From Pseudolabrys sp. FHR47 (lineage in GTDB: Bacteria; Pseudomonadota; Alphaproteobacteria; Rhizobiales; Xanthobacteraceae), in contig NZ_CP039740.1 in assembly GCF_005153485.1 (NCBI RefSeq), forward strand, positions 3,537,001-3,601,000: a stretch of DNA of 64,000 nucleotides. The letters run 5' to 3'. A program made the translations under genes and the position numbers. Below, piece after piece: positions 6,309-50,042 of this stretch. The stretch's first letter is position 1; each line of letters begins with the position of its first letter. The notes under the pieces were generated by a model. The model saw only the letters and a program-made list of their open reading frames with translations, ran no database searches and was not told where the DNA came from.

Positions 6309-6317
6309 CGTCGAGCT

Positions 6318-25496: not shown

Positions 25497-26087
25497 ATGA
25501 CATTCGATGTTGCCGCCTTCTACAAGGCCGAATTCGCCGAGCAGCGCGCGGTGGCGCAAGCGACCGAAGCTGCGCTCGGAAAGGCCTTCGCCGATCTGCT
25601 GGCGTCCTGCGTTACGTCGATCCGCGCCGGCGGCAAGATCATGCTGTTCGGCAATGGCGGCAGTGCCGCCGACGCTCAGCATCTCGCGACCGAACTTGCC
25701 GTCCGGTACAAGAAGGACCGTCCGGCCATCGCCGCCCTCGCCCTGACCACCGACACGTCGGTCTTGACCGCGGCCGGCAACGATTTCGGCTTCGACTACA
25801 TCTTCGCGCGGCAGATCGAGGCGCTCGGCCGGCCGGGCGACGTCGCCATTGGCATCTCGACTTCGGGCAAAAGCCCCAATGTCACGCTGGCGCTGAAGCA
25901 GGCCAAGAAAATGGGCCTTGTCACCGCGGCCCTCACCGGCAAGGGCGGCGGCGATCTGACCGGCCTTCCGCAGCACCTGCTTGTGGTGCCATCCGACACC
26001 ACGGCCCGCATCCAGGAGATGCACATCACGCTCGGGCAGATGCTGTGCGGCGCGATCGAGATCGAACTGGGCTTCGTCCAGCCGTGA
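25497..26087 (+). CDS. gmhA: GmhA-like sedoheptulose 7-phosphate isomerase
   Basis: A 196-residue SIS-domain isomerase that turns sedoheptulose 7-phosphate into glycero-manno-heptose 7-phosphate, the entry to activated heptoses. The phosphate loop [21 protein letters not shown] and the catalytic Glu in HLATEL are intact, as is the C-terminal [11 protein letters not shown] with catalytic His. [13 protein letters not shown] is the second phosphate-binding Ser/Thr cluster. The ATG at 25497 has GGGAG nine bases before it. Its stop overlaps the GTG start of the ligase gene (26084-26087), so they are coupled. It opens the polysaccharide locus; a variant SIS protein lies at 41087. Confidence 0.92.
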
Positions 26088-27319
26088 CGCTCTGGCGGTC
26101 CTACCGCGCAAGTCTGCCGGTGCAGGCCGACTGGCTCGTTGCCTTGCTGGCCGCTTCGCTGCCGTGGTCGACGTCCCTCACCGCCATCTTCGCCGTGCTG
26201 TGGCTGATTGCCGTCTTGCCAACACTGGGGCCTGAGGATTTCCGGCGGGCCTTTCTGCGGCCGGCCGGCGTCACGATCCTCGCCCTCGTCGGCTTGGCCG
26301 CGCTCGGCATGTTGTGGGCCGATGTGTCCTGGGCAGAGCGGTTCGACGGCTTTGACTCTTATCTGCGCCTTTTGTGCATTCCGCTGCTGCTGGCGCAGTT
26401 CAGCCGCTCCGAACACGCCGGCCGCGTCATGATCGGCTTTGCGGTGTCGTGCACGGTGCTGCTGGCCGTGTCGTGGCTAAGCTATTTCGGGCTGGTCCTG
26501 CCGCCGCCTTTCAAGCCGGACGGCATTCCGGTGAAGGACTACATTGCGCAGAGTGCGGTGCTGACGGTGGCGCTTCTGTTCTTCGTGCGGTTGGGCGTGG
26601 ACGCCTGGGGAAACGGGAGACGCACTCTGGCGCTCGCGCTCGCGCTGCTCGCGACGTTGTGCCTGATCAACATCTTCTATATCGCCACCAGCCGCACGGC
26701 ACTGGTGGTGACGACGCTGCTGCTGGTCGTGTTCGGCTTTCGCCGGTTCGGCTGGCGCGGCGCGGCAGCGATGGCCGTCGCCTTTGTCATCCTGATCGCG
26801 GCGGCCTGGCCGACGGCCGATTTCCTGCGCCAGCGGGTGGTCGGATTCGTTCAGGAAGTCCAGAGCTTTACTCCGGAAGGCCGGGCGACACCGGCGGGCG
26901 AGCGCCTCGAGTTCTGGCGCAAGTCGGTATCCTTCATCGCGGCGGCGCCCATCCTCGGACACGGCACCGGCTCTATTCGCAATCAGTTTCAGAAGGCCGC
27001 GGAAGGACAATCAGGGATGGCTGCGACGGTCGCCGCCAATCCACACAATCAAATGTTCGCCGTGGGGATTCAGATCGGCCTGGTCGGTATCGCGATCCTG
27101 ATCGCGATGTGGCTGTCTCATGTGGCCTTGTTCGGATCCCACAGTATTGCGGGCTGGATGGGGCTCGCGATCGTGCTGCAGAACATCGCCGGCTCAATGT
27201 TCAACTCCCATCTGTTCGATTTCACGCATGGCTGGCTATATGTGATCGGCGTCGGCGTTGCCGGCGGCGCTGTGCTTCGGGAAGCGCACCGTACCGGCGC
27301 GGCCGACCGGCGCGGCTAG
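26084..27319 (+). CDS. O-antigen ligase/polymerase-family membrane protein (Wzy_C)
   Basis: A 411-residue membrane protein with about ten hydrophobic segments and a large loop around residues 260-330, the layout of the O-antigen ligase (WaaL) and polymerase (Wzy) superfamily. In the loop, [17 protein letters not shown] and [14 protein letters not shown] are the conserved R and H-G-T-G segments, followed by [17 protein letters not shown]. These enzymes join or polymerise undecaprenyl-linked glycans in the periplasm. The GTG start at 26084 overlaps the gmhA stop. Its own stop shares bases with the stop of cysNC (CTAG, 27316-27319). With an ABC exporter in the same locus, a ligase role is more likely than polymerase. 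Confidence 0.85.
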
Positions 27320-29196
27320 ATAACCTTCAGTCGCTCCAGGCCGCGAACCACCTGCTCTGCCAATTCGGTGGCGGTGAACTCGCCGGACTTCAAGTGCAGA
27401 TCGGGCGATTGGGGCACTTCATAGGGCTGATCGACGCCCGTAAAATTCTTGATCTCGCCGGCGAGCGCGCGGCGGTAGAGTCCCTTGGGATCGCGCGCGA
27501 CGCATTGTTCGAGCGGGGCATCGACAAAAATCTCCAGGAACTCGCCGTCTGCAACCAGCTCGCGCGCCATCTGACGCTCGGCGCGGAACGGCGAGATGAA
27601 GGAACAGAGCACGACAAGGCCCGCTTCGGTCATCAACTTGGCCACTTCGCCAATGCGCCGGATGTTTTCGACACGATCGGCTTCGGTGAAGCCCAGGTCG
27701 CGATTGAGGCCATGCCGCACATTGTCGCCGTCGAGCAACAAAGTGTGCACGCCGCGCGCGTGCAACTGGACCTCGACGAGATTGGCGATCGTCGATTTTC
27801 CCGCGCCGGAGAGCCCGGTAAACCAAAGCACTGCGGGCCGGTGATTGTTGAGCAGCGACCGCTTTTCCTTGGTCACCGTGATATTCTGGCGATGAATGTT
27901 GGTGGCGCGGCGCAAGGGAAAATCGACCATACCCGCCGCGACGGTTTCATTGGAGACGCGGTCGATCAGAATGAATGCGCCGGTCGTCCGGTTGTCGGCA
28001 TAGGTGTCGAAAACGATCGGCCGCCCGGTCGACAGGTTACAGACGCCGACTTCGTTCAGCGCCAGAGTCTTGGCGGCAAGCTTGGCCAGGCTGTCGGTAT
28101 CGACCCGGTGCTTGAGTTCCGTCACGGTGGCGACCACGGCACCGTGGTTGATCTTCATCAGATAGGAGCGCCCCGGCAGCAGCCGCTCCGCCGACATCCA
28201 GACGAGATGCGCGGCGAATTGATCGGCCACCTGCGGCCGCTCGCGCATGGGCGCCATCACATCGCCGCGGGCGATGTCGATCTCGTCGGCGAGCGTTACC
28301 GTGACGGCGTCACCGGCCTCGGCACGGTCAACCTCACCGGCCGGCGACAGAATGGACTTGATGACGCTCGATCGTCCCGACGGCAGAACGGCGATCTCCT
28401 CGCCGATGCCTATCGTGCCGCTGGCCACAGTGCCGGCAAAACCGCGGAAATCCAGATTGGGCCGGTTAACCCATTGCACCGGCAGGCGGAATGCCTTGGC
28501 GGCGCGGTCATCCTCGACATCGACGGTTTCAAGAAATTCGAGAAGAGAGGGCCCGTCGAACCAGGGCGTTTTGTCGCTTCGCACCGACAGATTGTCGCCG
28601 TAGCGGGCCGAAAGCGGGATCGCCTGCACGACCTTGAAGCCGAGCGGCGCGGCGAAGGCGGCGAACGCGCCGGCGATGCCATCGAAGACGTCTTGCGAAA
28701 AGCCGACGAGGTCAATCTTGTTGACCGCCAGCACCACATGCCGGATGCCGAGCATGCCGGCAATGATGGCGTGCCGCCGCGTCTGCGCCAGCAGGCCTTT
28801 GCGCGCGTCAACCAGAAGAATGGCGAGGTCGCTATTGGATGCGCCGGTGGCCATGTTGCGGGTGTATTGCTCGTGGCCGGGCGTATCGGCGACGATGAAG
28901 GCGCGGCGCGGCGTCGCGAAATAACGATAGGCGACATCGATGGTGATACCCTGCTCGCGCTCTGCTTCGAGACCGTCGAGCAGTAATGCGAAATCGATGT
29001 CGGCGCCGGTGGTGCCGTGCTTTCTGGAATCGCGGGTCAATGCCGCAAGGTGATCATCGAAGATCAGATTCTGTTCGTAAAGCAGCCGGCCGATCAGCGT
29101 CGATTTTCCGTCGTCGACCGATCCGCAGGTCAGAAAGCGCAGCACCGGCCGCGAGCGCACCACACTGCCAGCGATGTCTGGTCCGGGCGAGCTCAT
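27316..29196 (-). CDS. cysNC: CysNC: sulfate adenylyltransferase subunit 1 / adenylylsulfate kinase fusion
   Basis: A 626-residue bifunctional enzyme making APS and then PAPS. The N-terminal EF-Tu-like GTPase has the P-loop [16 protein letters not shown], switch region [17 protein letters not shown] and VNKIDLVGF. The C-terminal 180 residues are APS kinase, with P-loop [15 protein letters not shown] and [15 protein letters not shown], plus [14 protein letters not shown]. The length is that of CysNC/NodQ proteins. The start overlaps the cysD stop by one base (TGATG on the minus strand). The presence of cysD/cysNC within a glycan locus, with a sulfotransferase 14 kb away, points to PAPS supply for sulfated polysaccharide, as NodPQ does for Nod factors, besides general sulfate assimilation. 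Confidence 0.95.
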
Positions 29197-30107
29197 CAGA
29201 AATAGCCCTCGCGCTTCTTCTTTTCCATCGAACCACTATCGTCGTGATCGATGAGCCGGCCCTGCCGTTCCGAACTCGACGACGAGCGCATCTCCTCGAT
29301 GATGGCATCAAGCGTGTCGGCCCCCGAACGGATGGCGCCGGTCAAGGGATAACAGCCGAGCGTGCGGAAGCGGACGCTCTCCATCCGCGGCGTCTCGCCC
29401 GGTTCGAGGGGCAGCCGCTCGTCATCGACCATGATCAGCGTGCCCTCGCGCTCCACCACCGGGCGCGACTTAGCGAAATAAAGCGGCACCACCGGGATAT
29501 TCTCGGCGCGGATGTAATCCCAGACATCGATCTCGGTCCAGTTCGATAGCGGAAACACGCGCAGCGACTCGCCAGGTTTGATGCGCGCGTTAAACAGGCG
29601 CCACAATTCGGGCCGCTGGTTGCGCGGGTCCCAGCCGTGAGATGCGCTGCGATGTGAGAAGATGCGCTCCTTGGCCCGGCTCTTCTCTTCGTCGCGCCGG
29701 GCGCCGCCGAAAGCCAGATCGAACTTCCATTTGTCGAGCGCCTGCCGCAGCCCCTCGGTCTTCATGACCTGCGTATGAACCGCCGATCCCGACGCAATCG
29801 GCGAAATACCGCGCCGGAGCCCCTCCTCGTTGACATGAACGAGCAGATCCATCCCGATCCGGGCCGCGGTCTCGTCCCTGAAGGCGAGCATCTCGCGAAA
29901 TTTCCAGGTCGTGTCGACGTGCAGAAGCGGAAATGGCGGCTTGCCCGGTGCAAAGGCTTTTTGCGCAAGGTGCAGCATCGCGCTGGAATCCTTGCCGATG
30001 GAATAGAGCATCACCGGGTTGCGCGACTCGGCGACCGCTTCGCGAATGATTTCGATCGCCTCGGCTTCAAGGCGGCGCAGACCGATGTTGTGCTCACGCC
30101 AGGTCAT
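29196..30107 (-). CDS. cysD: CysD: sulfate adenylyltransferase subunit 2
   Basis: A 303-residue ATP-pyrophosphatase (N-type) that makes APS with Cys[16 protein letters not shown] opens the domain. The PP-loop is [17 protein letters not shown], and [14 protein letters not shown] and [21 protein letters not shown] are family hallmarks. The C-terminus has [16 protein letters not shown] at 30107 was chosen over a TTG at 30122: GAAAG precedes it on the minus strand and the family begins here. It lies 51 bases after a nucleotide-sugar dehydrogenase gene on the same strand and overlaps cysNC, so the three may be cotranscribed. Confidence 0.95.
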
Positions 30108-30158
30108 GACGACTTTCAACAAATAGAAACCGAAGAATAGCGGCCATTGCCGCCGCGC

Positions 30159-31445
<1,287 letters not shown>

Positions 31446-32573: not shown

Positions 32574-32581
32574 ACGCACCC

Positions 32582-33610: not shown

Positions 33611-34882
33611 TCAGGCGGAAACGCCCAGTGACAGGTGCTCGAGGCCGGCCGCACGGCAAGCGGCGCCATCAAGGCACTTATACGGGTCGATGACGACCTT
33701 GCCACGCAGATGTTTGGCGATGTCGGTCGGGGCAAGCGCCTTGAACTGCGGCCAGGGCGTTACGATGACCAGCGCATCGGCACCGTCGCAAGCCTCCAGT
33801 TCACTCCCCTTGCCGGCGAGCCGCGGATGCCATTCCGGTTTCGGCGCAACGACCGGATCGAAGGTCTGCACCTTCGCATCCTTGATCTGGGACAGAAGCG
33901 CCAGCGACGGCGAATTCTTGGTCGAGTGCGTATTTTCCTTGTAGGCGAGCCCAAGCACCGCCAGCGTCGCATCGGGCGTTGCCGCCAGCACCTTGCTGCG
34001 CAAGGTGCGCAGCACCCAGTCGCGCCGGTAGCGGCTGTTGTGCTGCCAGGCGCGCACCACGCCGACATCGGTGCCATGCTTGTCGCCGAGGCGGACGATG
34101 GTCGCGAGGTCGCGCTCCAGATTGCCGCCGGCAATGCCGAGGCCCGGCGCTAGGTACGAATACTGGCCGATCCGGCGGTCAAGCTTCAACGCCGGCACGA
34201 TTTCCGACCAGTCGGCCCCAATATTCTCACAGATCTCGGCCAGCGTATTGGCGGTCGACACCGAGGCGACCAGACAGCAATTGATGGCGATCTTGGTGAG
34301 CTCGGCGCTCTCGAAACGCATCGGCAGAATCGGACAGCCGAAGGCCTTGAGGAAGGTGTCGAACGCCGGCGGCAAGGGCTTGCCCGGCTCCGCCACGCCG
34401 ACGATAAAACGCTCCGGCAGCGTCACGCGCTCCACGGCGCGGCCGAACACCAGGGTCTCGACCTGGTAGTAAAGCTGGCGCCCCGGCCGCTGCCGCGCCC
34501 GGGTAAAGCCCGGCGACACCTGGCTCAGCACCACGACGACGGCGTCCGGCCTAGTATTGGCCAGCACCAGTTCAAGGAGCTTGTCGAGACCGGTCAGATC
34601 GCTCGTCCCGGTGTCGTCCGTCGGCACGTCCGGCGCGACATAGACCAGGTCGCAAGCCTTGAGATCGGCCGCATCGGCCGTGAAGCTAATGCGCGCGCGG
34701 TTGTCGCGCAGCATATCGTCAAGGTCTGGCTCGACCACCGGCAATTGCCCGGCCTTGAGCCGCTCGACCAGCGCGGCGTCGGCGTCGAAGCAGACCATGT
34801 CGAAGCCCTTGCTCGAGCCGCCGATGGCCGAGCAGAGGCCGAGATGGGTCATGCCGGCATAGCCGACCGTTGGTTTGCTCAT
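33611..34882 (-). CDS. UDP-glucose/GDP-mannose dehydrogenase-like protein lacking the catalytic cysteine
   Basis: A 423-residue member of the nucleotide-sugar dehydrogenase superfamily. Lys197 and Asn201 in ELTKIAINCC match the conserved K-x-x-x-N of the middle domain, and VLGLAYKENTHSTKNSPS is the C-terminal nucleotide-binding signature. However, the segment that normally reads G-F-G-G-S-C-F-P-K-D is GIAGGNLERD at residues 249-258, with Asn254 in place of cysteine. The N-terminal glycine motif is also changed (VGYAGMTHLGL, with an insertion). It therefore cannot form the thioester used in the second oxidation step; it may stop at an aldehyde, act as an epimerase-like redox enzyme, or have another substrate. 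Start ATG overlaps the stop of the next gene in the operon (34879-34882). Confidence 0.82.
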   Translation of the reverse strand: MSKPTVGYAGMTHLGLCSAIGGSSKGFDMVCFDADAALVERLKAGQLPVVEPDLDDMLRDNRARISFTADAADLKACDLVYVAPDVPTDDTGTSDLTGLDKLLELVLANTRPDAVVVVLSQVSPGFTRARQRPGRQLYYQVETLVFGRAVERVTLPERFIVGVAEPGKPLPPAFDTFLKAFGCPILPMRFESAELTKIAINCCLVASVSTANTLAEICENIGADWSEIVPALKLDRRIGQYSYLAPGLGIAGGNLERDLATIVRLGDKHGTDVGVVRAWQHNSRYRRDWVLRTLRSKVLAATPDATLAVLGLAYKENTHSTKNSPSLALLSQIKDAKVQTFDPVVAPKPEWHPRLAGKGSELEACDGADALVIVTPWPQFKALAPTDIAKHLRGKVVIDPYKCLDGAACRAAGLEHLSLGVSA

Positions 34883-35814
34883 TGTGCGTTCGCGACCTTG
34901 ACCGCAGTGGCTGACAGCTGTCCAAGCACCCGCAGCAGCCAGCGATCGTTTGAAAGATTTGCCGGCGCCGCCTCGGCGATCAGACGTTTGAAGTGATCAT
35001 ATTCAAGCGCCCAGGTCGGGTCGTCCTGAACCAGCGTGACGTCCTGCTCGGGCGGACGACCGCTCGGCAAGACGCGGCGGCGATGGGTAAAGGTTGTCGG
35101 CCCCCACTTGCACAGCGAGGCGATATGCGCCGTACCGTTCTCGGCGAAGATGTCGCAAGTGAAATGGTTGCGCCACGACAGCAGCGTCATCTCGAGTTCG
35201 ATGCGCGGGCTACCAGCCTCGCAGCCGATCACGACATGGTCGGGCGCCCGGTTCTCGAAGCTGTTCGCAGAGATCACGCGGAAATCGTCGCTGATGTCGC
35301 CGAACCAGAAGCGCAATGTGTCGAGCAGATGCGAGCCGAGATCCGGCAAAACGCCGGCGCCCTGATCGCGCCACGCCGAATTACGCACCAGCCGCGCCGT
35401 GCCGTTGCCGTAGAACATGCGGCAGCGATAGATGCGGCCGAGTTCGCCCGACTGCACTAGGTCGCGCATGCGCACATAGTGCGGCTCGAAGCGGTGATTG
35501 TAGGCCGTATAGCAGATCGCGCGGTTGGCCCGCGCGACGGCCTCAAGCTCGGCCAGTTCGGCGTCGCTTTCGGCATGCAGCGGCTTTTCGACCAGCACGT
35601 GCTTGCCGTTACCGAGCAGGTATTTGAGGATCTCGACCTTCGGCTCGTCCGGAATGCAGGCCAGCACGGCGTCATAAGCGTCGAGCGGCACATCGCGGAC
35701 ATCGCGCCAATTGGCTTCCGGCGCGACGGGATCGACTATGCCGGCCGCCTCATCACCGGCAATCCGGTGCCGTTTCTTGCCCTGAACGCCGTAGCCGACA
35801 ACAAGCATCCGCAT
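34879..35814 (-). CDS. Gfo/Idh/MocA-family oxidoreductase
   Basis: A 311-residue NAD(P)-dependent sugar oxidoreductase. The N-terminal Rossmann motif is MLVVGYGVQGKKRH, the hallmark E-K-P is in HVLVEKPLHAESDAELAEL, and YNHRFEPHYVRMRDLVQSGELG and LPDLGSHLLDTLRFWFG are the usual substrate-side helices with Asp and His. Such enzymes oxidise a sugar hydroxyl to a ketone or reduce one. Two ATGs are possible (35814, 35808); the first is 13 bases after the preceding stop. Its stop overlaps the start of the cysteine-less dehydrogenase gene, so the two are tightly coupled and may act in succession. Confidence 0.87.
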   Translation of the reverse strand: MRMLVVGYGVQGKKRHRIAGDEAAGIVDPVAPEANWRDVRDVPLDAYDAVLACIPDEPKVEILKYLLGNGKHVLVEKPLHAESDAELAELEAVARANRAICYTAYNHRFEPHYVRMRDLVQSGELGRIYRCRMFYGNGTARLVRNSAWRDQGAGVLPDLGSHLLDTLRFWFGDISDDFRVISANSFENRAPDHVVIGCEAGSPRIELEMTLLSWRNHFTCDIFAENGTAHIASLCKWGPTTFTHRRRVLPSGRPPEQDVTLVQDDPTWALEYDHFKRLIAEAAPANLSNDRWLLRVLGQLSATAVKVANAQ

Positions 35815-38403: not shown

Positions 38404-39398
38404 TTCGCGCCGATTTTCTTCATCGTCCTGACGTTGTAATACCAATCGTCATCGAAGCTCGCCGGCAGCAGGTGGTTGCGGAAGGCGCGCGTCAGGTCGC
38501 GCACCGCGTCCTCGATCGTCCGCTTCGGCCTGAAGCCGAGCACGCGGGTGACCTTGTCGGAATTGACGTGATAAGAGCGGTTGTCGTTCGACGGCGTGGT
38601 CACGATGTTGATCGGGCCGCGATCGGGCAACTCCTCTTCGACCACCTTCTTCGCCATCTCGGCGATGTTGGCAATCGAATGATTCTGGAAGCCGATGTTG
38701 AAAATCTCGCGATGAATCTTCTCGTGCGGCGCCTGGAGCATCAGTTCGTAGGCGTCGACCATGTCCTCGACATGGAGATTGGGCCGCATCTGCGCGCCGC
38801 CGAAGACCGTGATCGTGCCCTTGTTGACCGCATGATTGGTCAGGATGTTGACCGACAGGTCGAGGCGGGTGCGCGGGCTGTAGCCGCAGATGGTCGCCGG
38901 GCGAATCACCGTCGTAGTGAAGTCGTCGGAGTTGTACTTCCACAGCAGCGGTTCGCACATGCCCTTGTACTTGTTGTACAGGGTGAGCGGGACCAGCGGA
39001 TGCTCTTCGGTGACGTTGGGCGAATCCGACACGCCGTAGACCGAGCTCGACGAGGCATAGACAAAGCGCTTCACGCCGGCGTTCTTGCAAGCCAGCACCA
39101 TCGGCTCGAAGCAATCGTAATTGATTGTCTTGGACAGGTTCTCGTCGAGCTCGAAGCTGGCATCGTTGGAGATGCAGGCCAGATGCAGGACCGCGTCGTG
39201 ACCCTGGACCGCCGCGGCGAGCTTTTCGGTATCGCGAATGTCGCCCTGAATGACCCGCAGATTCGGATCATTCGGGAACCGCGCGCCGAAGAACAGCGTG
39301 TCGTAGACTGTGACCTTGTAGCCACGCGCCAGAAGACGGGGCGTCAGAACGTGCCCAACGTAGCCGGCGCCACCGGTGATAAAGACCTTCTCGAACAA
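38400..39398 (-). CDS. NAD-dependent epimerase/dehydratase (SDR), second of pair
   Basis: A 332-residue extended SDR distinct from its neighbour. VFITGGAGYVGHVLTPRLLARG is the NAD motif, VLHLACISNDASFEL the usual H-L-A segment, and the catalytic residues are Ser in VYASSSSVYG and Y-x-x-x-K in YNKYKGMCEP. IRPATICGYSPRTRLDLSVN and FGGAQMRPNLHVEDM follow the pattern of NDP-sugar epimerases and dehydratases found beside HldE-like genes. It may be the equivalent of a heptose epimerase (HldD-like role) or a 4,6-dehydratase; motif reading alone does not decide. The gene follows transaldolase after 98 bases and overlaps the next SDR gene. Confidence 0.88.
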   Translation of the reverse strand: MFEKVFITGGAGYVGHVLTPRLLARGYKVTVYDTLFFGARFPNDPNLRVIQGDIRDTEKLAAAVQGHDAVLHLACISNDASFELDENLSKTINYDCFEPMVLACKNAGVKRFVYASSSSVYGVSDSPNVTEEHPLVPLTLYNKYKGMCEPLLWKYNSDDFTTTVIRPATICGYSPRTRLDLSVNILTNHAVNKGTITVFGGAQMRPNLHVEDMVDAYELMLQAPHEKIHREIFNIGFQNHSIANIAEMAKKVVEEELPDRGPINIVTTPSNDNRSYHVNSDKVTRVLGFRPKRTIEDAVRDLTRAFRNHLLPASFDDDWYYNVRTMKKIGAK

Positions 39399-39496: not shown

Positions 39497-40222
39497 TTAA
39501 GTCGCAATCTTAAAACCGGCTGCCTGCGCGTCGTTATAAAACATCTTTACGGTTTCTAACGAATAGGCGTCTTGGTCTTTCCCGATCAGGGACAGTTTCT
39601 TGAGGATGTCATTCGTCACGGTGATGATGCCGCAACCGACCTCGTCGGCCTGGATCACGTTCAGCAATTCGCGCGGGCTCGCCCACAGTAGTTCCGCCTT
39701 CGGCCGCGACGCCTGCAGAATCTTCGCCGCCTTGGTCATCAGCGGTACCGGATCGATACCGGAATCGGCGATGCGCCCGGCGAACACCGACACGATCGCC
39801 GGCACATCAGAATTGAGGGCGGCAGCAATCTTCTCGACCTGATCGAGCGTGAAAACCGCGGTGACGTTAACCTGGACGCCACGGCTCACGAGACGCGAGA
39901 TCAAGGGACCGGTAAAGACGCCCTTCGTATTGGTGACAGGAATCTTGATGTTCACATTGGAGCCCCAGGACGCGATCTTGAGCGCCTGCGCTTCCATCTC
40001 GTCGAACTCGTCGGCGAAGACTTCGAACGAAACCGGACGATCCGGAATCGCCGCAAGAACCTTGTGGGCGAAATCGACATAGTCCGTAACGCCCGCCTGT
40101 TTCATCAAGGTGGGGTTGGTCGTGAAGCCCTTCACGACGGGATTGGTGTAGAGGTTCTTCATGCTCTGAAGATCCGCACCGTCGGCGAAAATCTTGATCT
40201 TCAAAGAGGCAACACTCGTCAT
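39497..40222 (-). CDS. transaldolase-family protein
   Basis: A 241-residue transaldolase/fructose-6-phosphate-aldolase-type TIM barrel. The start KIFADGADLQSMKNLYTNP and VKGFTTNPTLMK are the family's first two signatures, and the Schiff-base lysine is in NVNIKIPVTNTKG. QVNVTAVFTLDQVEKIAAAL and VSVFAGRIADSGIDPVP are also conserved. Transaldolases move a dihydroxyacetone unit, giving sedoheptulose 7-phosphate from erythrose 4-phosphate. A location between gmhB and an SDR suggests it feeds the heptose branch, or joins a C3 unit to a sugar. It lies 66 bases after gmhB on the same strand. Confidence 0.9.
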   Translation of the reverse strand: MTSVASLKIKIFADGADLQSMKNLYTNPVVKGFTTNPTLMKQAGVTDYVDFAHKVLAAIPDRPVSFEVFADEFDEMEAQALKIASWGSNVNIKIPVTNTKGVFTGPLISRLVSRGVQVNVTAVFTLDQVEKIAAALNSDVPAIVSVFAGRIADSGIDPVPLMTKAAKILQASRPKAELLWASPRELLNVIQADEVGCGIITVTNDILKKLSLIGKDQDAYSLETVKMFYNDAQAAGFKIAT

Positions 40223-40288: not shown

Positions 40289-40831
40289 CTAGCTCGACTT
40301 GGGCAGCGCCGCCAAAATCAATGGAACCGCTTCGACCAGCGATCCGACGACCAGATCGGGCCGGGTCGGACGCCGCTCCTGCGGATAGTTGTAGTCCACG
40401 AATACCGTTCGGCAGCCGGCCGCCGCACCCGCATCAATGTCCCGCCAGCGATCGCCGACCATCCAGCTTTGAGACAGGTCGATGTCGTACTTCCGGGCGG
40501 AACGCAATAGCATTCCGGGCTTCGGCTTGCGACAGTCGCAATTTTCCCCTTCGGTGTGAAAACACACCTCGATGTCGTCCACAGGTACCTGACGACGCAA
40601 AATGTCGTGCATTTGGTCAAGTACGGTAGGGGTTTGCAGGCCGGTGCTGACGTCCGGCTGATTGGTGGCGACGACGATCATCAAGCCGGCGTCGCGCAGA
40701 CGGCCAACCGCTTCCGGAACCCCGGGCAGAATTTCGAAATCCTCCAGCGCGACCGGGGCATAGCCCCGCCCATTGCGGACGATATTGCGATTGATCACGC
40801 CGTCACGGTCGAGAAAGACTGCCCGTCGCAT
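40289..40831 (-). CDS. gmhB: GmhB-like heptose bisphosphate 7-phosphatase (HAD-IIIA)
   Basis: A 180-residue HAD phosphatase that removes the 7-phosphate from glycero-manno-heptose 1,7-bisphosphate. The nucleophile and acid Asp are in AVFLDRDGVINR (D-x-D). The zinc-site loop specific to GmhB is ICFHTEGENCDCRKP-like (seen as VCFHTEGENCDCRKPKPG), and MVGDRWRDIDAGAAAG is motif IV. The ATG at 40831 gives family length; further upstream the frame is open but unrelated. It is the first gene of the eight-gene minus-strand operon, divergent from the SIS isomerase gene with a 255-base gap that should hold both promoters. Confidence 0.92.
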   Translation of the reverse strand: MRRAVFLDRDGVINRNIVRNGRGYAPVALEDFEILPGVPEAVGRLRDAGLMIVVATNQPDVSTGLQTPTVLDQMHDILRRQVPVDDIEVCFHTEGENCDCRKPKPGMLLRSARKYDIDLSQSWMVGDRWRDIDAGAAAGCRTVFVDYNYPQERRPTRPDLVVGSLVEAVPLILAALPKSS

Positions 40832-41086: not shown

Positions 41087-41671
41087 ATGTCGCACGCTGA
41101 AACCTACCTCAAAGAAGTCGTCGAAACGGCGCAAAAACTGTCGGTTGCAGACATCGAGAGCCTGTGCGACGAGTTGGTCGCTCTCCGCGAGCGCGACGGA
41201 CGGCTTTTCTTCCTGGGCGTCGGCGGCAGCGCCGGCAATTGCGGCCATGCCGTCAACGATTTCCGCAAGCTGTGCGGCATCGAAACCTACGCGCCGACCG
41301 ACAACGTCTCGGAGCTTACCGCCCGGACCAATGACGAAGGCTGGCACACGGTTTTTTCCGAGTGGCTCAAGGTCAGCCGGGCCAATGCCAAGGACGCGAT
41401 CTTCATTTTCTCGGTGGGTGGCGGCAACCTCGAGAAGAACGTGAGCCCCAACCTGGTCGCGGCTATTCAGGAAGCCAAGAGCCGCAACATGAAGGTCTTT
41501 GGCATCGTCGGCCGCGACGGCGGCTACACCAAGAAGGCTGGCGACGTCGTTGTTGTGGTGCCGACTACCCACGATGGGCGCGTGACGCCGCACGCCGAAG
41601 AGTTCCAGGGCGTGGTTTGGCACTGTCTCGTGTCGCACCCGAAACTGCAGAAAAATGCCACGAAGTGGTAG
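41087..41671 (+). CDS. SIS-domain sugar isomerase, GmhA-like variant
   Basis: A 194-residue SIS protein. FFLGVGGSAGNCGHAVNDF is the phosphate-binding loop, and IFSVGGGNLEKNVSPNLV is the second phosphate site. Compared with GmhA, the catalytic Glu position carries Asp (HAVNDF instead of H-x-x-x-E). The C-terminal RIQEMH segment is replaced by VTPHAEEFQGVVWH, with the His displaced by one position. It therefore belongs to a separate SIS subgroup and may isomerise a different ketose phosphate than the gmhA product at 25497. It is the first gene of a plus-strand group with the 610-residue protein and the sulfotransferase. Confidence 0.85.
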   Translation: MSHAETYLKEVVETAQKLSVADIESLCDELVALRERDGRLFFLGVGGSAGNCGHAVNDFRKLCGIETYAPTDNVSELTARTNDEGWHTVFSEWLKVSRANAKDAIFIFSVGGGNLEKNVSPNLVAAIQEAKSRNMKVFGIVGRDGGYTKKAGDVVVVVPTTHDGRVTPHAEEFQGVVWHCLVSHPKLQKNATKW

Positions 41672-41842: not shown

Positions 41843-43675
41843 TTGCTCAAACCCCTAGAAATTGCCGCCAAAGGCGACGTGGTGCAAAACGACACGGAGC
41901 TGAAGGCTGAGGCTTTCGATTTCGAACTCGTCCTGTCGACTTTTTTCGAAGAGGTCATCGACGCCCTGAAGACGGGCGAGGGCATGATGGAGCCCGTGAC
42001 CCACGGGCACATTTATCAAAAGTTTCTCGACTTCTTTGCTTATCGCATTCCTGGAGCCGACGCTCGCGTTCGCGAAATCGGCACGATGCGCCGGCCAAAG
42101 AAACCGTCGCTGCACAAGCGGCTCATCGCGGCGACGCCGGATGGCGTCAAGCGCTTCGTCAAGAAATTTGGCTGGCTCTACATCCTGGTCATCGGCATCG
42201 ACGCCCTACTTTTTCCGAGCGAAAGCGCGAAACGGCGCGTATCACTGCGCGGTCAAATCGCGCGCCGAATTCCGACGTCGTTGCGCTTCAGGCTTTCGCA
42301 TATTCAGTTTCTTCGATCGCTCGACGAGACGATATTCCGTCCACGCTGGAAGTCGAAAGAGAAGCAGAAACCTCTCTGGGCCTTTACAAAGGACGAAATC
42401 GCGAAACTCGCAAAAGTATTGGTCGCCGACAATGCGGAGGCCCTGCGCGACGGGCTGGAAGCGGCGCGCAAGCTCGACGCCGATCCGCGCGACGTCTACG
42501 TCTTCGTGTCCCATCTGTTTCCGACGACCTGGTCACCGCACGTGCGCGCGCTCAATGACCGGGGTAACCACACGGTTTGGTGCGGCATCGACGACCCGCA
42601 CGAATCGGCGGGATACGGCGTCCTGGAATCGCCGCTCGTTCCGGTCACGACGCATGTTCATTTGACGTTTCTCGGCGTCATTGTCTTTCTCTGCGCGACG
42701 CGCCGGTGCCAGATCCTGATGAGCGGCGAGTGCTTCTACGGCTCGAACTGGAACGCCGAAGACACGACCGTTCTGTACTCGCTGCTGTCGAGCGTGCTGT
42801 CGACCATGCGCCGCCGGCGCGCCGGCACCAAGAACCTTACGCTGCTGATGTATGACGGTCTCAAGCCGATCAACCTGTCCGGCAACGCGAAGAACGTTGC
42901 GATCACCCATTTCTATAAGCGGCTGATGGGCACCGGCGACCGCATCATCTACAATTCCAATACCGAGCTTCTCGGAACCTTCAATCAGTACGCCATTCCC
43001 CTGAAGACCCCGCGGCTGCATTTTTACCGCTATTCGGAAGCACCGAAGGCGCCGAAGCCGCGCATTGACCTCGAAGGCGGCAGGAACATCCACATCGCTT
43101 GCATCACGGTATGCCTGAACGAGTTCGGCGAACCGTCGCGCGATATGGTGGCCGGCTACGTCCGCGACATCATCTGTTCGGGGATTCACTTCCACTACTA
43201 CTGCATGACCGACCACCCGGTCATCAAAAAGTTCAAACAAGACCTCGGCGAATACGGGAAGTTCCTGCACCTCCATCCGATCATCAAGGATCAGTCAAAG
43301 CTGGTCGACGACCTTCACCAGTATCACGCCGGCTTCAATCCATCCGACCATGTGCCATTCGCACACGGCATCAGCTCCTTGAACGACCGATTCTACCAGG
43401 ACGCCATGTCGGTGTTCTTGCAGTCGACCATCGGCACCTCCTTCCTGGTCTATGCCGCAGCGGGGCTTCCGGTGCTATTGCCACGCGGATGCGTCGGGGC
43501 CACGCAGTTGCTTGGTGATGTCGCGCTGCCCATCATCTTCGCCGAGATGAGCAACCTGCGTTCGATCCTTGAGGATTGCGATCTGGAGCATCGCCTGGCG
43601 CTGGCCGATAAGGACCGCTCGAAGGTCCACATCGACACTCACATCGACCGATTTGTGGAGTTCATGAAGCGGTGA
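41843..43675 (+). CDS. large protein of unknown family, possible glycosyltransferase
   Basis: A 610-residue protein I cannot place. It has no signal peptide; one hydrophobic stretch near residue 110-125 (GWLYILVIGIDALLF) may touch the membrane. The last third has the feel of a GT-B nucleotide-sugar domain: HAGFNPSDHVPFAHG and FLVYAAAGLPVLLPRGCVG, the latter like the acceptor/donor cleft loop with A-A-G-L-P. No D-x-D or classic E-x-x-x-x-x-x-E motif was confirmed. A TTG at 41843 is the first start in frame; GTG codons at 41879 and 41882 are alternatives. The stop overlaps the sulfotransferase start (TGATG, 43673-43677), so the two belong together. Confidence 0.6.
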   Translation: MLKPLEIAAKGDVVQNDTELKAEAFDFELVLSTFFEEVIDALKTGEGMMEPVTHGHIYQKFLDFFAYRIPGADARVREIGTMRRPKKPSLHKRLIAATPDGVKRFVKKFGWLYILVIGIDALLFPSESAKRRVSLRGQIARRIPTSLRFRLSHIQFLRSLDETIFRPRWKSKEKQKPLWAFTKDEIAKLAKVLVADNAEALRDGLEAARKLDADPRDVYVFVSHLFPTTWSPHVRALNDRGNHTVWCGIDDPHESAGYGVLESPLVPVTTHVHLTFLGVIVFLCATRRCQILMSGECFYGSNWNAEDTTVLYSLLSSVLSTMRRRRAGTKNLTLLMYDGLKPINLSGNAKNVAITHFYKRLMGTGDRIIYNSNTELLGTFNQYAIPLKTPRLHFYRYSEAPKAPKPRIDLEGGRNIHIACITVCLNEFGEPSRDMVAGYVRDIICSGIHFHYYCMTDHPVIKKFKQDLGEYGKFLHLHPIIKDQSKLVDDLHQYHAGFNPSDHVPFAHGISSLNDRFYQDAMSVFLQSTIGTSFLVYAAAGLPVLLPRGCVGATQLLGDVALPIIFAEMSNLRSILEDCDLEHRLALADKDRSKVHIDTHIDRFVEFMKR

Positions 43676-44509: not shown

Positions 44510-44538
44510 TTGACAACGCGTGGCGTCTGGATGATAGA
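44510..44538 (+). promoter_or_regulatory. candidate promoter upstream of wzm
   Basis: A perfect TTGACA (44510-44515) with a weak GATAGA (44533-44538) 17 bases on, in the 284-base gap before the wzm start. The -35 is convincing, the -10 is poor. Confidence 0.35.
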
Positions 44539-44732
44539 ACGTGGCCCGCCAGGGGGGCGGAGGCTCACTATCTCGCAGCAAATTCGACGGCCGCACGCCA
44601 AAAGGTACCGGTCTGAAAGTGTGCTAGTAACTTGCGGGAAGAAGCCAGCAGCCGGCATCGCTTCAAAGGGTTGCCTCGGCGCAGAGGCATAACCGCTTGC
44701 GCCAGACGATCCGAGTTTACACGGCAGCTTCT

Positions 44733-45539
44733 ATGAACGAATCCCTCAATCGAGCCTTGCGATCGAACTCAGCCTCCCTTCTCGCCCCGTTGTTCGACTG
44801 GCGTCTGTGGACGACGCTCGGCTGGCTCGACATGGTGCAGACCTATCGGCGCACATCACTCGGCCCGTGGTGGATCACCGCCAACCTCGCGGTTTTCGTC
44901 ATCGCCATGACTTATGTCTACGGCGCGCTGTTCGGCATTCCGACCAAGGAATATTCCGCCTACCTGCTGGGCGGCATGATCGCCTGGTACTGGGTGTCGG
45001 CACTGCTGGCGGAGGTCGGCAACGCCTTCATCAACTACACCTACTTCATCAGAAGTACGTCCATCGCCAAGGCGCAGCTGGTCTGGGCGACAGTCTACAA
45101 ACAGCTTCTGACCTTCCTGCACAACTCGGCGATCGTCATCGTCTACATTGTCGTCGGCGTGATCCCGCTGAACTTTCACACGCTGGCGATCATTCCCGCG
45201 GTGGCACTTCTGTTCCTGCTTTCGATCCCGACAACCGCCATCGCGGCTATCCTCTTTGCCCGCTATCGCGACCTGCAGCGTTTCATCGGCAGCGCCGTCA
45301 TTATCGTTATGATGCTGACGCCGGTGTTCTGGAAGCCCGATATGATGGTTGGCTGGCGCAGCGCCTTCGTCGAGCTCAATCCCTTCCATTACCTCATCGA
45401 ACTCATCAGGCGGCCTCTGCTCGGCCAGCCGGTCGATCTGACGACCTACGCCGTCGTCATCGGACTGACGGTGCTGGCCTGGCTCGTCGGCGGCCGCGTG
45501 TTCCGCCGCTATCAGTCCTACGTGATCTTCTGGGTCTAG
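44733..45539 (+). CDS. wzm: ABC-2 polysaccharide exporter permease (Wzm/KpsM-like)
   Basis: A 268-residue permease of the ABC-2 type with six membrane helices. It exports complete undecaprenyl- or lipid-linked polysaccharide through the inner membrane. DMVQTYRRTSLGPWWITANL is the typical cytoplasmic entry segment, AYLLGGMIAWYWVSALL a conserved helix, and FWKPDMMVGWRSAFVELNPFHYLIELIR the C-terminal P-x-H family signature. The ATG at 44733 is preferred to an earlier TTG. It is followed by the ATPase gene after four bases. The pair gives the locus an ABC-dependent export route. Confidence 0.93.
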   Translation: MNESLNRALRSNSASLLAPLFDWRLWTTLGWLDMVQTYRRTSLGPWWITANLAVFVIAMTYVYGALFGIPTKEYSAYLLGGMIAWYWVSALLAEVGNAFINYTYFIRSTSIAKAQLVWATVYKQLLTFLHNSAIVIVYIVVGVIPLNFHTLAIIPAVALLFLLSIPTTAIAAILFARYRDLQRFIGSAVIIVMMLTPVFWKPDMMVGWRSAFVELNPFHYLIELIRRPLLGQPVDLTTYAVVIGLTVLAWLVGGRVFRRYQSYVIFWV

Positions 45540-45543
45540 ATTC

Positions 45544-46302
45544 ATGACCGACTGTCATATTCGCCTCGACAACGTTCACCTGAGCATCCCGATCTTCGCG
45601 CCGGGGCAACAGCGGCTCTTTCGTTCGCCCTTTCGCCGCGCGCCCGTGGGCGGCAATGTCGGCAGGCGCGACGGCAAGGTCTATGTCGATGCGCTACGTG
45701 GCATCTCGATCGACATCAAGCGCGGCGAAAGCCTTGCGCTCATCGGTCACAACGGCGCCGGCAAATCCACTCTGCTGCGCCTGATTGCCGGGCTGTACCC
45801 GGCCACGATCGGCACGCTGAGCGTACGGGGATCGCTTGGCTGGCTGTTCGACGTCGGCGGCGGGATGAGTGCCGATCTCACGGGTAACGAGTGCATTAAA
45901 TATTGGTGTCTCATCAATCAAATCCCGCGGCAGAGTTGGCCCGAAATCATCGACGACGTCATCACCTTCACCGAACTCAATTCCTTTCTGTCCCTGCCCA
46001 TCCGCACCTATTCGGACGGCATGCGCGCACGTTTGTTCGCTGCGCTGGCGACAGCATGGAAGCGCGACATCCTGTTGCTGGACGAAGGTATCGGTGCCGG
46101 CGACCAGGCCTTTCAGGACAAGTTCAAGGTCCGCCTTGAAGGCTTCCTTGCCCACGCCGGCCTGATGGTGATCGCGTCCCACAGTCCGGACTTGCTGCGC
46201 CGCTACTGCAAGCTGGGCATGGTTCTCAACCACGGCGAAGTGCAGATGACCGGCACGCTTGAAGAAGCGCTCAAGGCCTACGAGAGTGGCGTCGGCCATT
46301 AA
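45544..46302 (+). CDS. wzt: polysaccharide ABC exporter ATPase (Wzt/KpsT-like, short form)
   Basis: A 252-residue ATPase partner of Wzm. Walker A is IGHNGAGKSTLLRLI, the signature loop is YSDGMRARLFAALATA (a Wzt-type variant of LSGGQ), Walker B is ILLLDEGIGAGD, and the switch His is in VIASHSPDLLR. It has an N-terminal extension of about 40 residues before the core but no C-terminal carbohydrate-recognition domain such as in Escherichia coli O9a Wzt. Export is thus probably coupled to synthesis without recognition of a terminal cap. It follows wzm after four bases. Confidence 0.93.
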   Translation: MTDCHIRLDNVHLSIPIFAPGQQRLFRSPFRRAPVGGNVGRRDGKVYVDALRGISIDIKRGESLALIGHNGAGKSTLLRLIAGLYPATIGTLSVRGSLGWLFDVGGGMSADLTGNECIKYWCLINQIPRQSWPEIIDDVITFTELNSFLSLPIRTYSDGMRARLFAALATAWKRDILLLDEGIGAGDQAFQDKFKVRLEGFLAHAGLMVIASHSPDLLRRYCKLGMVLNHGEVQMTGTLEEALKAYESGVGH

Positions 46303-46332
46303 TCCGATAATACTGCGTGAGGGGGCAAGCCT

Positions 46333-47502: not shown

Positions 47503-47629
47503 CGCGAAACCTGCCGTTTCGGGGTTTCCCGGTTGATGTGCCGGTCAAGAATTGGCATATCAAGGCCGCCGGCAGCAACGCGCGCGGGCCGGTCCGCCTT
47601 TCCATCATCCGCTATTTGGTTGTTTACCC

Positions 47630-48289
47630 ATGCCGGAAGTCAATCTGTTGACGAAGCTGCCGAAGCCGAAAAAGCGCGACGTCAATGCGCGGGCAACGGC
47701 CAAGAACGAAGAAGTCATCCGCGTTTCGCGCCAATACGGTTTTGAGTATTTCGACGGGCCGCGCGAATATGGCTACGGCGGCTATCGCTATGACGGTCGC
47801 TGGGTGCCGGTGGCCGAAGACATGGTCAAGCATTTCGACCTGAAGCCGGGCGACCGCGTGCTCGACGTCGGCTGCGCCAAGGGTTTTCTGGTCAAGGATT
47901 TCATGAAGGCCTGCCCCGGCCTCGAAGCGTTCGGCCTCGACGTCTCGCGCTATGCGCTGATGAATTGCGAGCCCGAGGTTATCGGCCGCCTCCATCTCGG
48001 CAACGCGATGGAACTGCCCTTCCCCGACAACGCCTTCAAGGCGGTCATCTCGCTCAACACGATCCATAATCTCGATCGCGACAAGTGCATCATCGCGCTG
48101 AAGGAAATTCAGCGCGTGTCCGGCGGTCGCGCATTCGTCACCGTCGATTCCTATCGCACGCCTGAAGAACGCCAGCTCTTCCTCGACTGGGTGCTGACCG
48201 CGCACTATCACGAATATCCGGATGGCTGGATCAAGACCTTCAACGAGGCCGGCTACACCGGCGACTACAACTGGACCATCGTCCAGTAA
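47630..48289 (+). CDS. class I SAM-dependent methyltransferase
   Basis: A 219-residue methyltransferase. The SAM-binding motif is RVLDVGCAKGFLVKDFM, motif II is in ELPFPDNAFKAVISLNTIHN and motif III in EIQRVSGGRAFVTV. The start ATG at 47630 gives MPEVNLLTKLP; an upstream open frame lacks similarity. Nothing in it reveals the acceptor. It directly precedes the two transketolase subunit genes (21-base gap), which suggests a role in the same sugar pathway rather than in general metabolism. Confidence 0.82.
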   Translation: MPEVNLLTKLPKPKKRDVNARATAKNEEVIRVSRQYGFEYFDGPREYGYGGYRYDGRWVPVAEDMVKHFDLKPGDRVLDVGCAKGFLVKDFMKACPGLEAFGLDVSRYALMNCEPEVIGRLHLGNAMELPFPDNAFKAVISLNTIHNLDRDKCIIALKEIQRVSGGRAFVTVDSYRTPEERQLFLDWVLTAHYHEYPDGWIKTFNEAGYTGDYNWTIVQ

Positions 48290-48310
48290 GCGGGTTCGGA
48301 GAAACAATCG

Positions 48311-49126
48311 ATGCACGGTAAAATGACCGGCCCGGACGTCGAGGCCGCGCGCACGCGTTGCAAGGCCTATCGGCGGCGCATCCTCGAAGTGTCGCAGCAG
48401 GTGCCGGCTCTGCATATCGGCGGCGCCTTCTCCGCGGTCGAACTCGTTGACAGCATCTACAACGATCTGATGCGGCGGCGGCCGGGCGAGAACTCGCCCG
48501 ATACGTTCATCCTGTCCAAGGGTCACGGCTGCATGATCCAGTACGTCGTGCTCGAAAGCCTCGGCATCTTGAAGAAGAGCGATCTCGACGACTATTCCAC
48601 AGCGCGCGGCCAACTCGGCGTGCACCCTGACTACGGCAATCCTGGCATCGAAGCCTCGACCGGCGCGCTCGGTCACGGCCTGTCGATGGCTGTCGGCATG
48701 GCACTCGCCAACCGCATCAACGGCAATGACGGCATTGTCTACACTGTCATGAGCGATGGCGAGGTTCAGGAAGGCTCGATTTGGGAAGCCACGCTGATGG
48801 CGACTTCGCTGCGCCTCAACAACCTGGTGGCCTTCGTCGACTACAACCAGATGGTCAGCATCGGCCCGATCGTCGATCTGCACCCGCATTTCTATCCGCT
48901 GGTCGAGAAATTCCGCGCCTTCGGCTGGGAATGCGTCGAAATCGACGGACATGACAACAAGCTGATCGTCGACACCGTCAAAGGCCGCAGCGGCGACAAG
49001 CCGCTGATGGTCATCGCCCGCACCGTGAAGGGCAAGGGCGTAAGCTACATGGAGAACGTTCCGATGTGGCACTACCGCTCGCCCAACAAGGATGAGCTTC
49101 GTCAGGCGATGCAGGAGCTGGAGTAA
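48311..49126 (+). CDS. transketolase, N-terminal subunit
   Basis: A 271-residue subunit corresponding to the N-terminal thiamin-diphosphate-binding domain of transketolase. PDTFILSKGHGCMIQYVVLE carries the catalytic His region, and TGALGHGLSMAVGMALANRI is the conserved loop. YTVMSDGEVQEGSIWEATL holds the G-D-G type diphosphate motif, here S-D-G-E, and NNLVAFVDYNQM its distal Asn. The C-terminal half is encoded separately just downstream, the split form found in archaea and in many secondary-metabolite and glycan loci. It would move a two-carbon ketol unit. It follows a methyltransferase gene at 21 bases. Confidence 0.92.
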   Translation: MHGKMTGPDVEAARTRCKAYRRRILEVSQQVPALHIGGAFSAVELVDSIYNDLMRRRPGENSPDTFILSKGHGCMIQYVVLESLGILKKSDLDDYSTARGQLGVHPDYGNPGIEASTGALGHGLSMAVGMALANRINGNDGIVYTVMSDGEVQEGSIWEATLMATSLRLNNLVAFVDYNQMVSIGPIVDLHPHFYPLVEKFRAFGWECVEIDGHDNKLIVDTVKGRSGDKPLMVIARTVKGKGVSYMENVPMWHYRSPNKDELRQAMQELE

Positions 49127-49130
49127 GCCC

Positions 49131-50042
49131 GTGCGCAATACGTTTTCCGAGACGCTCTACGAAGAAGCCTGCAAGAACGACAAGGTCTGCATCGTCGTCG
49201 CCGACATCTCGCCGGCCGGCAGCATGGCGAAGTTCGGCAAGGAATTCCCCGACCGCTTCGTCAATGTCGGCGTCGCCGAGCAGAGCATGATCGGCATCAC
49301 CGCCGGACTGGCGCTCAAGGGTATGCAGCCTTTCGCCTATACGATCGCGACGTTCTCGCTGTACCGCCCGTTCGAAATGGTGCGCGACGACCTGTGCTAC
49401 CAGAACCTGCCGGTCACCGTCGTCGGCATGGGCGCGGGCATCATCTATGCCTCGCTCGGCGGCACGCATCATTCGCAGGAAGACATCACCATCGCCGGCG
49501 CGTTGCCGAACATGCGCATCATCGCGCCCTGCGATCCGCAGGAATGCATCGACGCAACCCGCTGGTGCGCCCAACAGCGGCAGGGCCCGGTCTATCTGCG
49601 TATCGGCAAATCGGGCGAACCGACGCTGACCAAGGGCGCCGAGCCATGGCAGTTCGGCAAGCTGCGCTACCTGCGCCGCGGCAGCGACGTCTGCATTCTC
49701 ACTTATGGCGTCATCACCAAGATGGCCTTTGAAGTCGCCGAGGCGCTGCAGGCCAAGGGCAAGTCGGTGTCGATCGTCTCAGCGCACACCGTCAAGCCAC
49801 TCGATCGCCCCGGCATCATCGAAGCGCTCAAGAACCACAAGCAGGTCATCGTGATCGAGGAAACCGCGCCGCTCGGCGGCCTCGGTGCGCAGACCAAGCA
49901 GATCGCCTGGGACATGCAGGCGACCTGCCGTCTCAACACCTTCTCGCTGCAGGATGCCTTCGTCGACAACAACGGAACGTGGGAAGACCTGCTCGACGCC
50001 CACGGCCTGTCGACGCCGAAGATCCTGGCCGCGGTGGCATGA
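49131..50042 (+). CDS. transketolase, C-terminal subunit
   Basis: A 303-residue subunit with the pyrimidine-binding and C-terminal domains. FVNVGVAEQSMIGITAGLAL contains the Glu that activates thiamin diphosphate, and GAGIIYASLGGTHHSQEDI the substrate-side His residues. GPVYLRIGKSGEP and DVCILTYGVITKMAFEVAEAL belong to the later domains. The GTG at 49131 lies four bases after the stop of the N-terminal subunit gene; the upstream open frame is not homologous. With the transaldolase in the same locus it could supply or extend a C7 or larger sugar. Confidence 0.93.
   Translation: MRNTFSETLYEEACKNDKVCIVVADISPAGSMAKFGKEFPDRFVNVGVAEQSMIGITAGLALKGMQPFAYTIATFSLYRPFEMVRDDLCYQNLPVTVVGMGAGIIYASLGGTHHSQEDITIAGALPNMRIIAPCDPQECIDATRWCAQQRQGPVYLRIGKSGEPTLTKGAEPWQFGKLRYLRRGSDVCILTYGVITKMAFEVAEALQAKGKSVSIVSAHTVKPLDRPGIIEALKNHKQVIVIEETAPLGGLGAQTKQIAWDMQATCRLNTFSLQDAFVDNNGTWEDLLDAHGLSTPKILAAVA

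Follow-up and report, generated by a model that had tools for sequence, protein, structure and literature searches.

The window analysed here, a 64,000-nucleotide stretch of the one-contig genome of Pseudolabrys sp. FHR47 (NZ_CP039740.1, positions 3,537,001 to 3,601,000), carries a likely surface-polysaccharide locus. In it, profile searches found a SIS-type isomerase (SIS2), a GmhB-type phosphatase, a transaldolase (TAL), a nucleotidyltransferase-kinase fusion (HldEr) and a split transketolase (TkN1/TkC1). A sequence-only reading had grouped these genes with gmhA, and the searches recovered every one of them. SIS2 and its partners belong to a conserved gene set, which is rearranged yet complete in the window (33.6-50.9 kb), while gmhA, an O-antigen ligase and sulfate-activation genes lie to its left and outside it. 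The members of the set, and the sugar that they may produce, are the subject of this study:

33611-34882, minus strand: UGDb, UDP-glucose-dehydrogenase-like, without the catalytic Cys (GGNLERD, not GGSCFPKD); PF03721/PF00984/PF03720.
34879-35814 (start inferred), minus strand: Gfo, Gfo/Idh/MocA-type oxidoreductase, a conserved neighbour; PF22725, PF01408.
35828-37390 (start inferred), minus strand: HldEr, nucleotidyltransferase and PfkB kinase fusion in reversed domain order; PF01467 then PF00294.
37384-38403 (start inferred), minus strand: SDR1, epimerase/dehydratase of sugars bound to a nucleoside diphosphate (NDP); PF16363, PF01370.
38400-39398, minus strand: SDR2, NDP-sugar epimerase/dehydratase, the query of the named-genome scan; PF01370.
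39497-40222, minus strand: TAL, transaldolase with Schiff-base Lys93; TIGR02134, 358 bits (cut-off 282).
40289-40831 (start inferred), minus strand: GmhB-type HAD phosphatase; PF13242/PF00702, GmhB models below cut-off.
41087-41671 (start inferred from 194-residue homologues), plus strand: SIS2, aldose/ketose-phosphate isomerase; PF13580.
47630-48289 (start inferred), plus strand: MT2, class I methyltransferase of the operon; PF08241/PF13649.
48311-49126, plus strand: TkN1, N-terminal half of the split transketolase; PF00456.
49092-50042 (true start probably near 49131), plus strand: TkC1, C-terminal half of the split transketolase; PF02779 and PF02780.
50070-50945, minus strand: SDR3, an SDR at the variable end of the operon; PF01370.

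SIS2, TAL, HldEr and TkN1 served as queries against 198 genomes of the family Xanthobacteraceae, from which 44 neighbourhoods were taken. The set recurs there, complete or partial, in the order SIS2-GmhB-TAL-SDR2-SDR1-HldEr-Gfo-UGDb-SDR-MT2-(x)-TkN1-TkC1, with the SDR, the methyltransferase and the TkN-TkC pair as variable members. A scan of named genomes by SDR2 alignment gave at least 571 relatives, the best 80 of which (SDR2 identity 61-86%) were taken; these loci were picked through SDR2 and are therefore silent on how often SDR2 itself is absent. With gene presence in neighbourhoods defined by tblastn and identity thresholds, SDR1 was found in 75 of these 80 loci, TAL and HldEr in 65 each, Gfo in 60, UGDb in 56, SIS2 and GmhB in 54 each, MT2 in 39, TkN1 in 22 and TkC1 in 20. 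Long flanks, with no less than 5.5 kb ahead of SDR2 and 8.5 kb behind it, were available for 42 loci, with SDR1 in 40, HldEr and Gfo in 38 each, TAL in 37, UGDb in 36, SIS2 in 30, GmhB in 29, MT2 in 26, TkN1 in 18 and TkC1 in 17. An SDR3- or SDR4-type gene was present in 31 of these, and all seven core genes (SIS2, TAL, SDR2, SDR1, HldEr, Gfo and UGDb) in 26.

The titles of the loci name Alpha-, Beta-, Gamma- and Deltaproteobacteria, Acidobacteria, Bacteroidia, SAR202, Leptospiraceae, Nitrospiraceae, Chlamydiia and Kiritimatiellaeota; most of the 80 are metagenome-assembled genomes, in which a contig may be misplaced, and single phylum assignments may err. Relatives of SIS2 in public proteins number at least 8,000 at E 1e-5, not every one of which need be SIS2 proper, and the closest SIS2 among the matches listed is from a Pseudolabrys sp. 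(94% identity). The gene grouping goes beyond chance, because the same order recurs in other families and, by the titles, in other phyla: the conserved set is a real, conserved pathway module. The check proposed with the sequence-only reading, namely whether the set is scattered in relatives, thus left that reading unrefuted. Its idea of a single pathway module in this locus holds; gmhA, however, only flanks the island and is no part of what recurs. We found no description of the cassette in the open-access papers searched, and one may be in print elsewhere.

Within the module, the isomerase is set apart by its phosphate loop. All 77 SIS2 relatives with at least 50% identity (own included) carry a six-residue insertion after GGG; this and the other sequence sets (73, 91 and so on) were selected by identity to the window protein, pool named records with other genomes and hold some genomes twice (for instance L026/L053, L032/L060, L034/L056 and L010/L098). 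The window SIS2 reads SVGGG where GmhA has STSG. The insertion is absent from two PDB GmhA alignments, from the window's own gmhA product and from the GmhA-like isomerases of L049, L050, L052 and L101, the exception among the aligned SIS proteins being L163, with a longer insertion of its own. The GmhA phosphate is presumably held by three serines and one threonine, according to an excerpt of PMC5387315. Judged by its loop, SIS2 differs from GmhA at the site that grips the phosphate and is not a GmhA. A Glu-to-Asp change at the catalytic position is likewise found in 77/77, but proves nothing because some short-loop isomerases share it.

The profile scores are in line with a departure from the heptose enzymes. 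SIS2 reaches 48 bits against the gmhA model (cut-off 209), of which the window's own gmhA also falls short; HldEr stays below the cut-offs of two HldE models (132 vs 345 bits and 94 vs 181 bits), and its domain order, nucleotidyltransferase then kinase, is the reverse of that of HldE. Its motifs are largely kept ([HT]xGH in 77/77, kinase GxGD in 74/77), as is the DxDG motif of the GmhB-type phosphatase in 72/72 relatives. The genome's own HldE lies 2 Mb away at 1,597,820, beside waaC-, waaF- and hldD-looking genes (such names, also at L184, L164 and similar loci, were read from first residues, not by family search), and a true HldE above the curated cut-off was found elsewhere in the genome in all 20 cassette genomes checked. 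Most likely, the window gmhA serves the ordinary core-heptose pathway. A full heptose set with gmhA was therefore rejected: gmhA is outside the conserved set and true HldE is encoded elsewhere. By the same token, the argument that the product is no core sugar because the core lacks heptose does not apply here.

The second departure concerns UGDb. Members of the UDP-sugar 6-dehydrogenase family need a catalytic Cys (GGxCFPKD) to form the acid. An Asn replaces this Cys in all 73 UGDb relatives with at least 45% identity (own included), and Thr stands at the position in L040, L042, L043, L046 and L150. As a control, 25 of 29 UDP-glucose dehydrogenase (UGD) loci from 296 genomes of another phylum, the Actinomycetes, keep the Cys; L133 and L150 lack it, and two gave no clear residue. 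UGDb as a maker of uronic acid was rejected on the loss of this residue. The Cys-less enzyme would instead stop at the carbonyl, as expected for the oxidation of a secondary alcohol, and the exocyclic carbon is a secondary alcohol in any aldopyranose longer than hexose. As its exocyclic carbon would be of this kind, a higher-carbon sugar is what the predicted loss of function supports, although it does not separate C7 from C8.

TAL is the sole PF00923 match in the whole 4.5-Mb genome, and not a second copy. It is for this reason that the earlier claim of a supply of sedoheptulose 7-phosphate independent of central metabolism appears doubtful. Lys93 is kept in 91/91 operon-type and 26/26 second-type TAL sequences. 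All 19 family genomes with SIS2 (at least 59% identity) have TAL at 55% identity or more; the two genes are less than 20 kb apart on one contig in 18, and the nineteenth pair is split over two contigs. Any TAL lies less than 20 kb from gmhA in 13 of the 106 strongest gmhA matches, a count that leaves out 27 weaker gmhA rows and partial TAL rows; with the weaker rows read by eye, where the second gmhA of G181 and one of G163 are less than 20 kb from a TAL, the figure is 15 of 133.

The partner of TAL also differs between types of HldEr. The 14 genomes with operon-type HldEr all have the operon TAL, on the same contig in 12 and less than 4 kb away in ten of these. The second type (29-36% identity) shares a contig with a GmhA-like isomerase in 15 of 16 matches (within 8 kb in 14), with TAL in one and with SIS2 in none (count without G273). 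TAL gave no match at E 1e-10 in 12 second-type genomes, though more distant transaldolases could escape at this threshold. By this partition, most operons whose isomerase is GmhA-like do without a transaldolase, which is a further reason to set aside the label of a full heptose-precursor set.

Whole-genome searches extended these counts. Twenty-two of 24 named cassette genomes have an operon-type TAL (at least 54%), 11 of them together with a more distant transaldolase match (25-36%); of the remaining two, one has only the distant transaldolase and one has none. Fifteen of the 80 loci are without TAL in their stretch, and five of the seven such genomes searched whole have it elsewhere, while none of the operon type was found in the whole-genome searches of L076 and L097. 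In L163, which comes from the Actinomycetes sample, the SDR2-SDR1-HldEr-Gfo-UGDb core is kept, but the transaldolase (28% identity) and the SIS protein (34%) belong to other subfamilies; this looks as though the operon might need a transaldolase step as such. A TAL tree grouped the 91 operon-type sequences with L131, but its support was 0.264, it was rooted on two divergent sequences and left the second type paraphyletic, and it was not used as proof.

The surroundings of the set complete the picture of the locus:

25464-26087, plus strand: gmhA, outside the operon; TIGR00441, 181.8 bits (cut-off 209).
41843-43675: 610-residue protein beside SIS2, possibly a glycosyltransferase; no Pfam match at E 0.001.
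44697-45539, plus strand: Wzm, ABC-2 transporter permease, likely for polysaccharide export; PF01061.
45544-46302, plus strand: Wzt, ABC transporter ATPase; PF00005.
51063-52262, plus strand: DegT1, aminotransferase-family protein; PF01041.
52262-53371, plus strand: DegT2, aminotransferase-family protein; PF01041.

DegT1 adjoins operon genes in some relatives (L085, L092, L129), and DegT1/DegT2 occur in only part of them. Inside the glycan island lie cysNC (with APS kinase) and cysD at 27316-30122, and a Sulfotransfer_3 protein is encoded directly past the window end (L006:2241-3194), so that the polymer of the island may be sulfated. Further, an 1881-residue subtilase stands mid-island (54198-59843), with a P-domain and RTX calcium-binding repeats (11 stretches). 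After the island follows a second sugar set (62529-64000 and L006 ~1-7000) of nucleotidyltransferase, SDR, UGD and a split transketolase pair.

We propose, with a probability of roughly 0.57 and from sequence comparison, that the conserved set makes an NDP-activated octose for O-antigen or capsule through lincosamide-like steps. TAL would take a three-carbon unit from fructose 6-phosphate (or sedoheptulose 7-phosphate) and join it to a pentose 5-phosphate; SIS2 would convert the resulting octulose 8-phosphate to octose 8-phosphate. The kinase of HldEr would then phosphorylate C1, the GmhB-type phosphatase would remove the C8 phosphate and the nucleotidyltransferase of HldEr would attach the nucleotide. 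UGDb would oxidise a secondary side-chain alcohol to the ketone, and Gfo, SDR1, SDR2 and SDR3/4 would remodel the oxidised sugar. Its decoration would fall to MT2 and, in part of the family, to the DegT enzymes, and two further carbons may come from the split transketolase. At this locus, Wzm/Wzt would export the polymer. The proposed first step has a counterpart in LmbR: according to PMC5854111, this enzyme forms octulose by a transaldol transfer in which ribose 5-phosphate is the acceptor and fructose 6-phosphate or sedoheptulose 7-phosphate the donor. All together, the sugar is most likely a lincosamide-style octose, not a core-type heptose. A surface polysaccharide rather than the core as its destination, as first suggested, is the most likely case, and an unusual higher-carbon sugar remains the best guess.

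An unlikely contender is an unusual NDP-heptose, for which TAL would make sedoheptulose 7-phosphate from erythrose 4-phosphate, SIS2 would be a divergent isomerase of that compound and the side chain would be modified at C6. This reading is favoured by the resemblance of GmhB, HldEr and SIS2 to heptose enzymes and by the PDB, where each of the 13 matches to SIS2 bears the name phosphoheptose isomerase; a Cys-less UGDb would suit the secondary C6 hydroxyl of a heptose equally well. Several observations in the neighbourhoods weigh in the same direction and thus against the octose. Some operons combine SDR1 and SDR2 with a GmhA-like isomerase and have no TAL (L050, L101), and the operon-type TALs of L016 and L048 stand without other genes of the set in the stretch examined. 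Moreover, gmhA lies no more than 15 kb from 11 of 70 second-subfamily TALs, and in ten Xanthobacteraceae loci (L164-L173), which were chosen for nearness to gmhA and so yield no frequency, gmhA-like and often hldE-like genes stand beside TAL. Because of this adjacency, a transaldolase-heptose link does exist among the second-subfamily TALs of Xanthobacteraceae. Sedoheptulose 7-phosphate is, however, a product of transketolase, which supplies it anyway; TAL is missing from the contig in 15 of the 16 second-type HldEr operons, and the phosphate loop of SIS2 deviates in 77/77.

Alternatively, TAL might act on a hexose phosphate or a non-phosphorylated acceptor and lead to another higher-carbon sugar (a nonose or a deoxy-ketose), the split transketolase being a second carbon-adding step. 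Transaldolases and transketolases take several substrates, according to PMC5854111, and TkN1 and TkC1 are present in 18 and 17 of the 42 long-flank loci. Nevertheless, the characterised pathway that was found with the same roles makes an octose (excerpts of PMC4351081 and PMC12945683), and we regard this alternative as quite improbable. It is very improbable, finally, that TAL is a housekeeping transaldolase that sits in the island by chance, in an operon for an ordinary modified hexose. Its status as the genome's only PF00923 protein would favour this; against it, a second, distant transaldolase (25-36%) accompanies the operon one in 11 of the 24 named cassette genomes, the operon context persists across phyla, and a UGD-like enzyme without its Cys should not yield a hexuronic acid.

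The split transketolase invites an extension of the octose proposal. Transketolase_N has four matches in the whole genome. Besides the TkN1 pair, they are a 695-residue frame at 1.19 Mb, a weak match (31 bits) at 0.72 Mb and, some 4.8 kb beyond the end of the window, another split pair (L006:5257-6081 and 6078-7001; TkN2 42% identical to TkN1). If TkN1/TkC1 add two carbons, the product would be a ten-carbon sugar. Bradyrhizose is such a ten-carbon O-antigen sugar (PMC9912281, excerpt), and the cluster for it in the photosynthetic Bradyrhizobium ORS285 comprises eleven genes including gdh (PMC4743980, excerpt). It is conceivable, though rather improbable, that the operon is the missing pathway for C10 surface sugars of this kind, and a general carbon-adding O-antigen cassette across phyla. 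TAL and SIS2 would then make the C8 chain, HldEr would activate it, UGDb, Gfo and the SDRs would place ketones, and the split transketolase would extend it by two carbons to C10, whether or not a ring is then closed.

Bradyrhizobium manausense (G344), which has photosynthetic reaction-centre genes, carries the operon as eleven co-linear genes, a likeness to the bradyrhizose cluster in number. Against the C10 extension, a search of the first 100 kb of the G344 contig, which starts only 17 kb before the operon, gave no relatives of rfaL, rfaD or rfaE, and the Bradyrhizobium carriers G341 and G345 are without reaction-centre genes in our searches. BTAi1, ORS278 and ORS285 are absent from the 120 SDR1 relatives listed, among which only Bradyrhizobium manausense, B. 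arachidis and Skermanella aerolata are named. A related arrangement, SDR1-HldEr(30-31%)-SDR2-split transketolase-DegT1-DegT2 with a GmhA-like isomerase and without transaldolase, is seen in L050 and L052 (G035, G298). Clusters of this type are weak candidates for the bradyrhizose locus, since they lack TAL and SIS2 and the five carriers tested (G035, G143, G298, G312, G332) have no reaction-centre genes. The link to bradyrhizose is thus a lead, not a finding.

The only unbranched octoses built through a transaldolase that we know of are those of Streptomyces antibiotics. If the octose proposal is true, transaldolase-built unbranched octoses or larger sugars would be an undescribed and widespread component of surface polysaccharides, with their pathway hidden under the annotation 'D-sedoheptulose 7-phosphate isomerase'. 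The SIS2 loop insertion together with the Cys-less UGDb provides a genetic marker for choosing strains for structural analysis, and how bradyrhizose-type sugars are made becomes a directly testable question.

Compared with known systems, the operon shares the logic of isomerase, kinase, phosphatase and nucleotidyltransferase with the ADP-heptose pathway (GmhA, HldE, GmhB, HldD). It differs from it in the remodelled loop of SIS2, in a reversed HldEr that scores far below the HldE cut-offs, and in the additional transaldolase, UGDb, Gfo and transketolase. O-antigens are already known to contain branched octoses, yersiniose among them, which are proposed to come from a hexose that gains a C2 branch; two-protein complexes of the AviB1/AviB2 type are proposed to add such branches in antibiotic sugars (excerpt of PMC4753412). 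Like TkN1/TkC1, these complexes (avilamycin, paulomycin) consist of two proteins with a proposed C2 addition to a sugar, but the AviB-type octose is built by branching a hexose with C2, without a transaldolase, and for TkN1/TkC1, which match transketolase profiles, a branching role is only conjectural. The ten carbons of bradyrhizose, in turn, are what C8 plus C2 would give.

The closest likeness is to the lincosamide octose pathway of Streptomyces lincolnensis (LmbR/N/P/K/O/M/L/Z/S), which has the same enzyme roles in one cluster, matched here by role. Presumed families were used for LmbM, LmbL, LmbZ, LmbP and LmbO; for LmbM, LmbL and LmbZ, PMC4351081 and PMC12945683 give roles but no families. 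As described in excerpts of these papers, lincosamide clusters encode a transaldolase, a C8 isomerase, a kinase, a phosphatase, a guanylyltransferase, an epimerase, a dehydrogenase, an oxidoreductase and an aminotransferase. No recognisable lmb genes were met through the 296 Actinomycetes genomes, nor by a search of protein names that started from the L162 dehydrogenase. Unlike the lincosamide cluster, the operon is mostly Gram-negative, with export and glycosyltransferase genes near it in the window; it has extra SDRs, a methyltransferase and the split transketolase. An aminotransferase-family protein, a possible counterpart of LmbS, accompanies it in some relatives. Its kinase and nucleotidyltransferase form one reversed HldE-like fusion, in place of which L043 has a GHMP kinase and an NTP_transferase. 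With an SDR, a UGD (GGT motif), Gfo, these two enzymes, TAL, GmhB and SIS2, L043 matches the lincosamide roles M, L, Z, P, O, R, K and N, the aminotransferase excepted.

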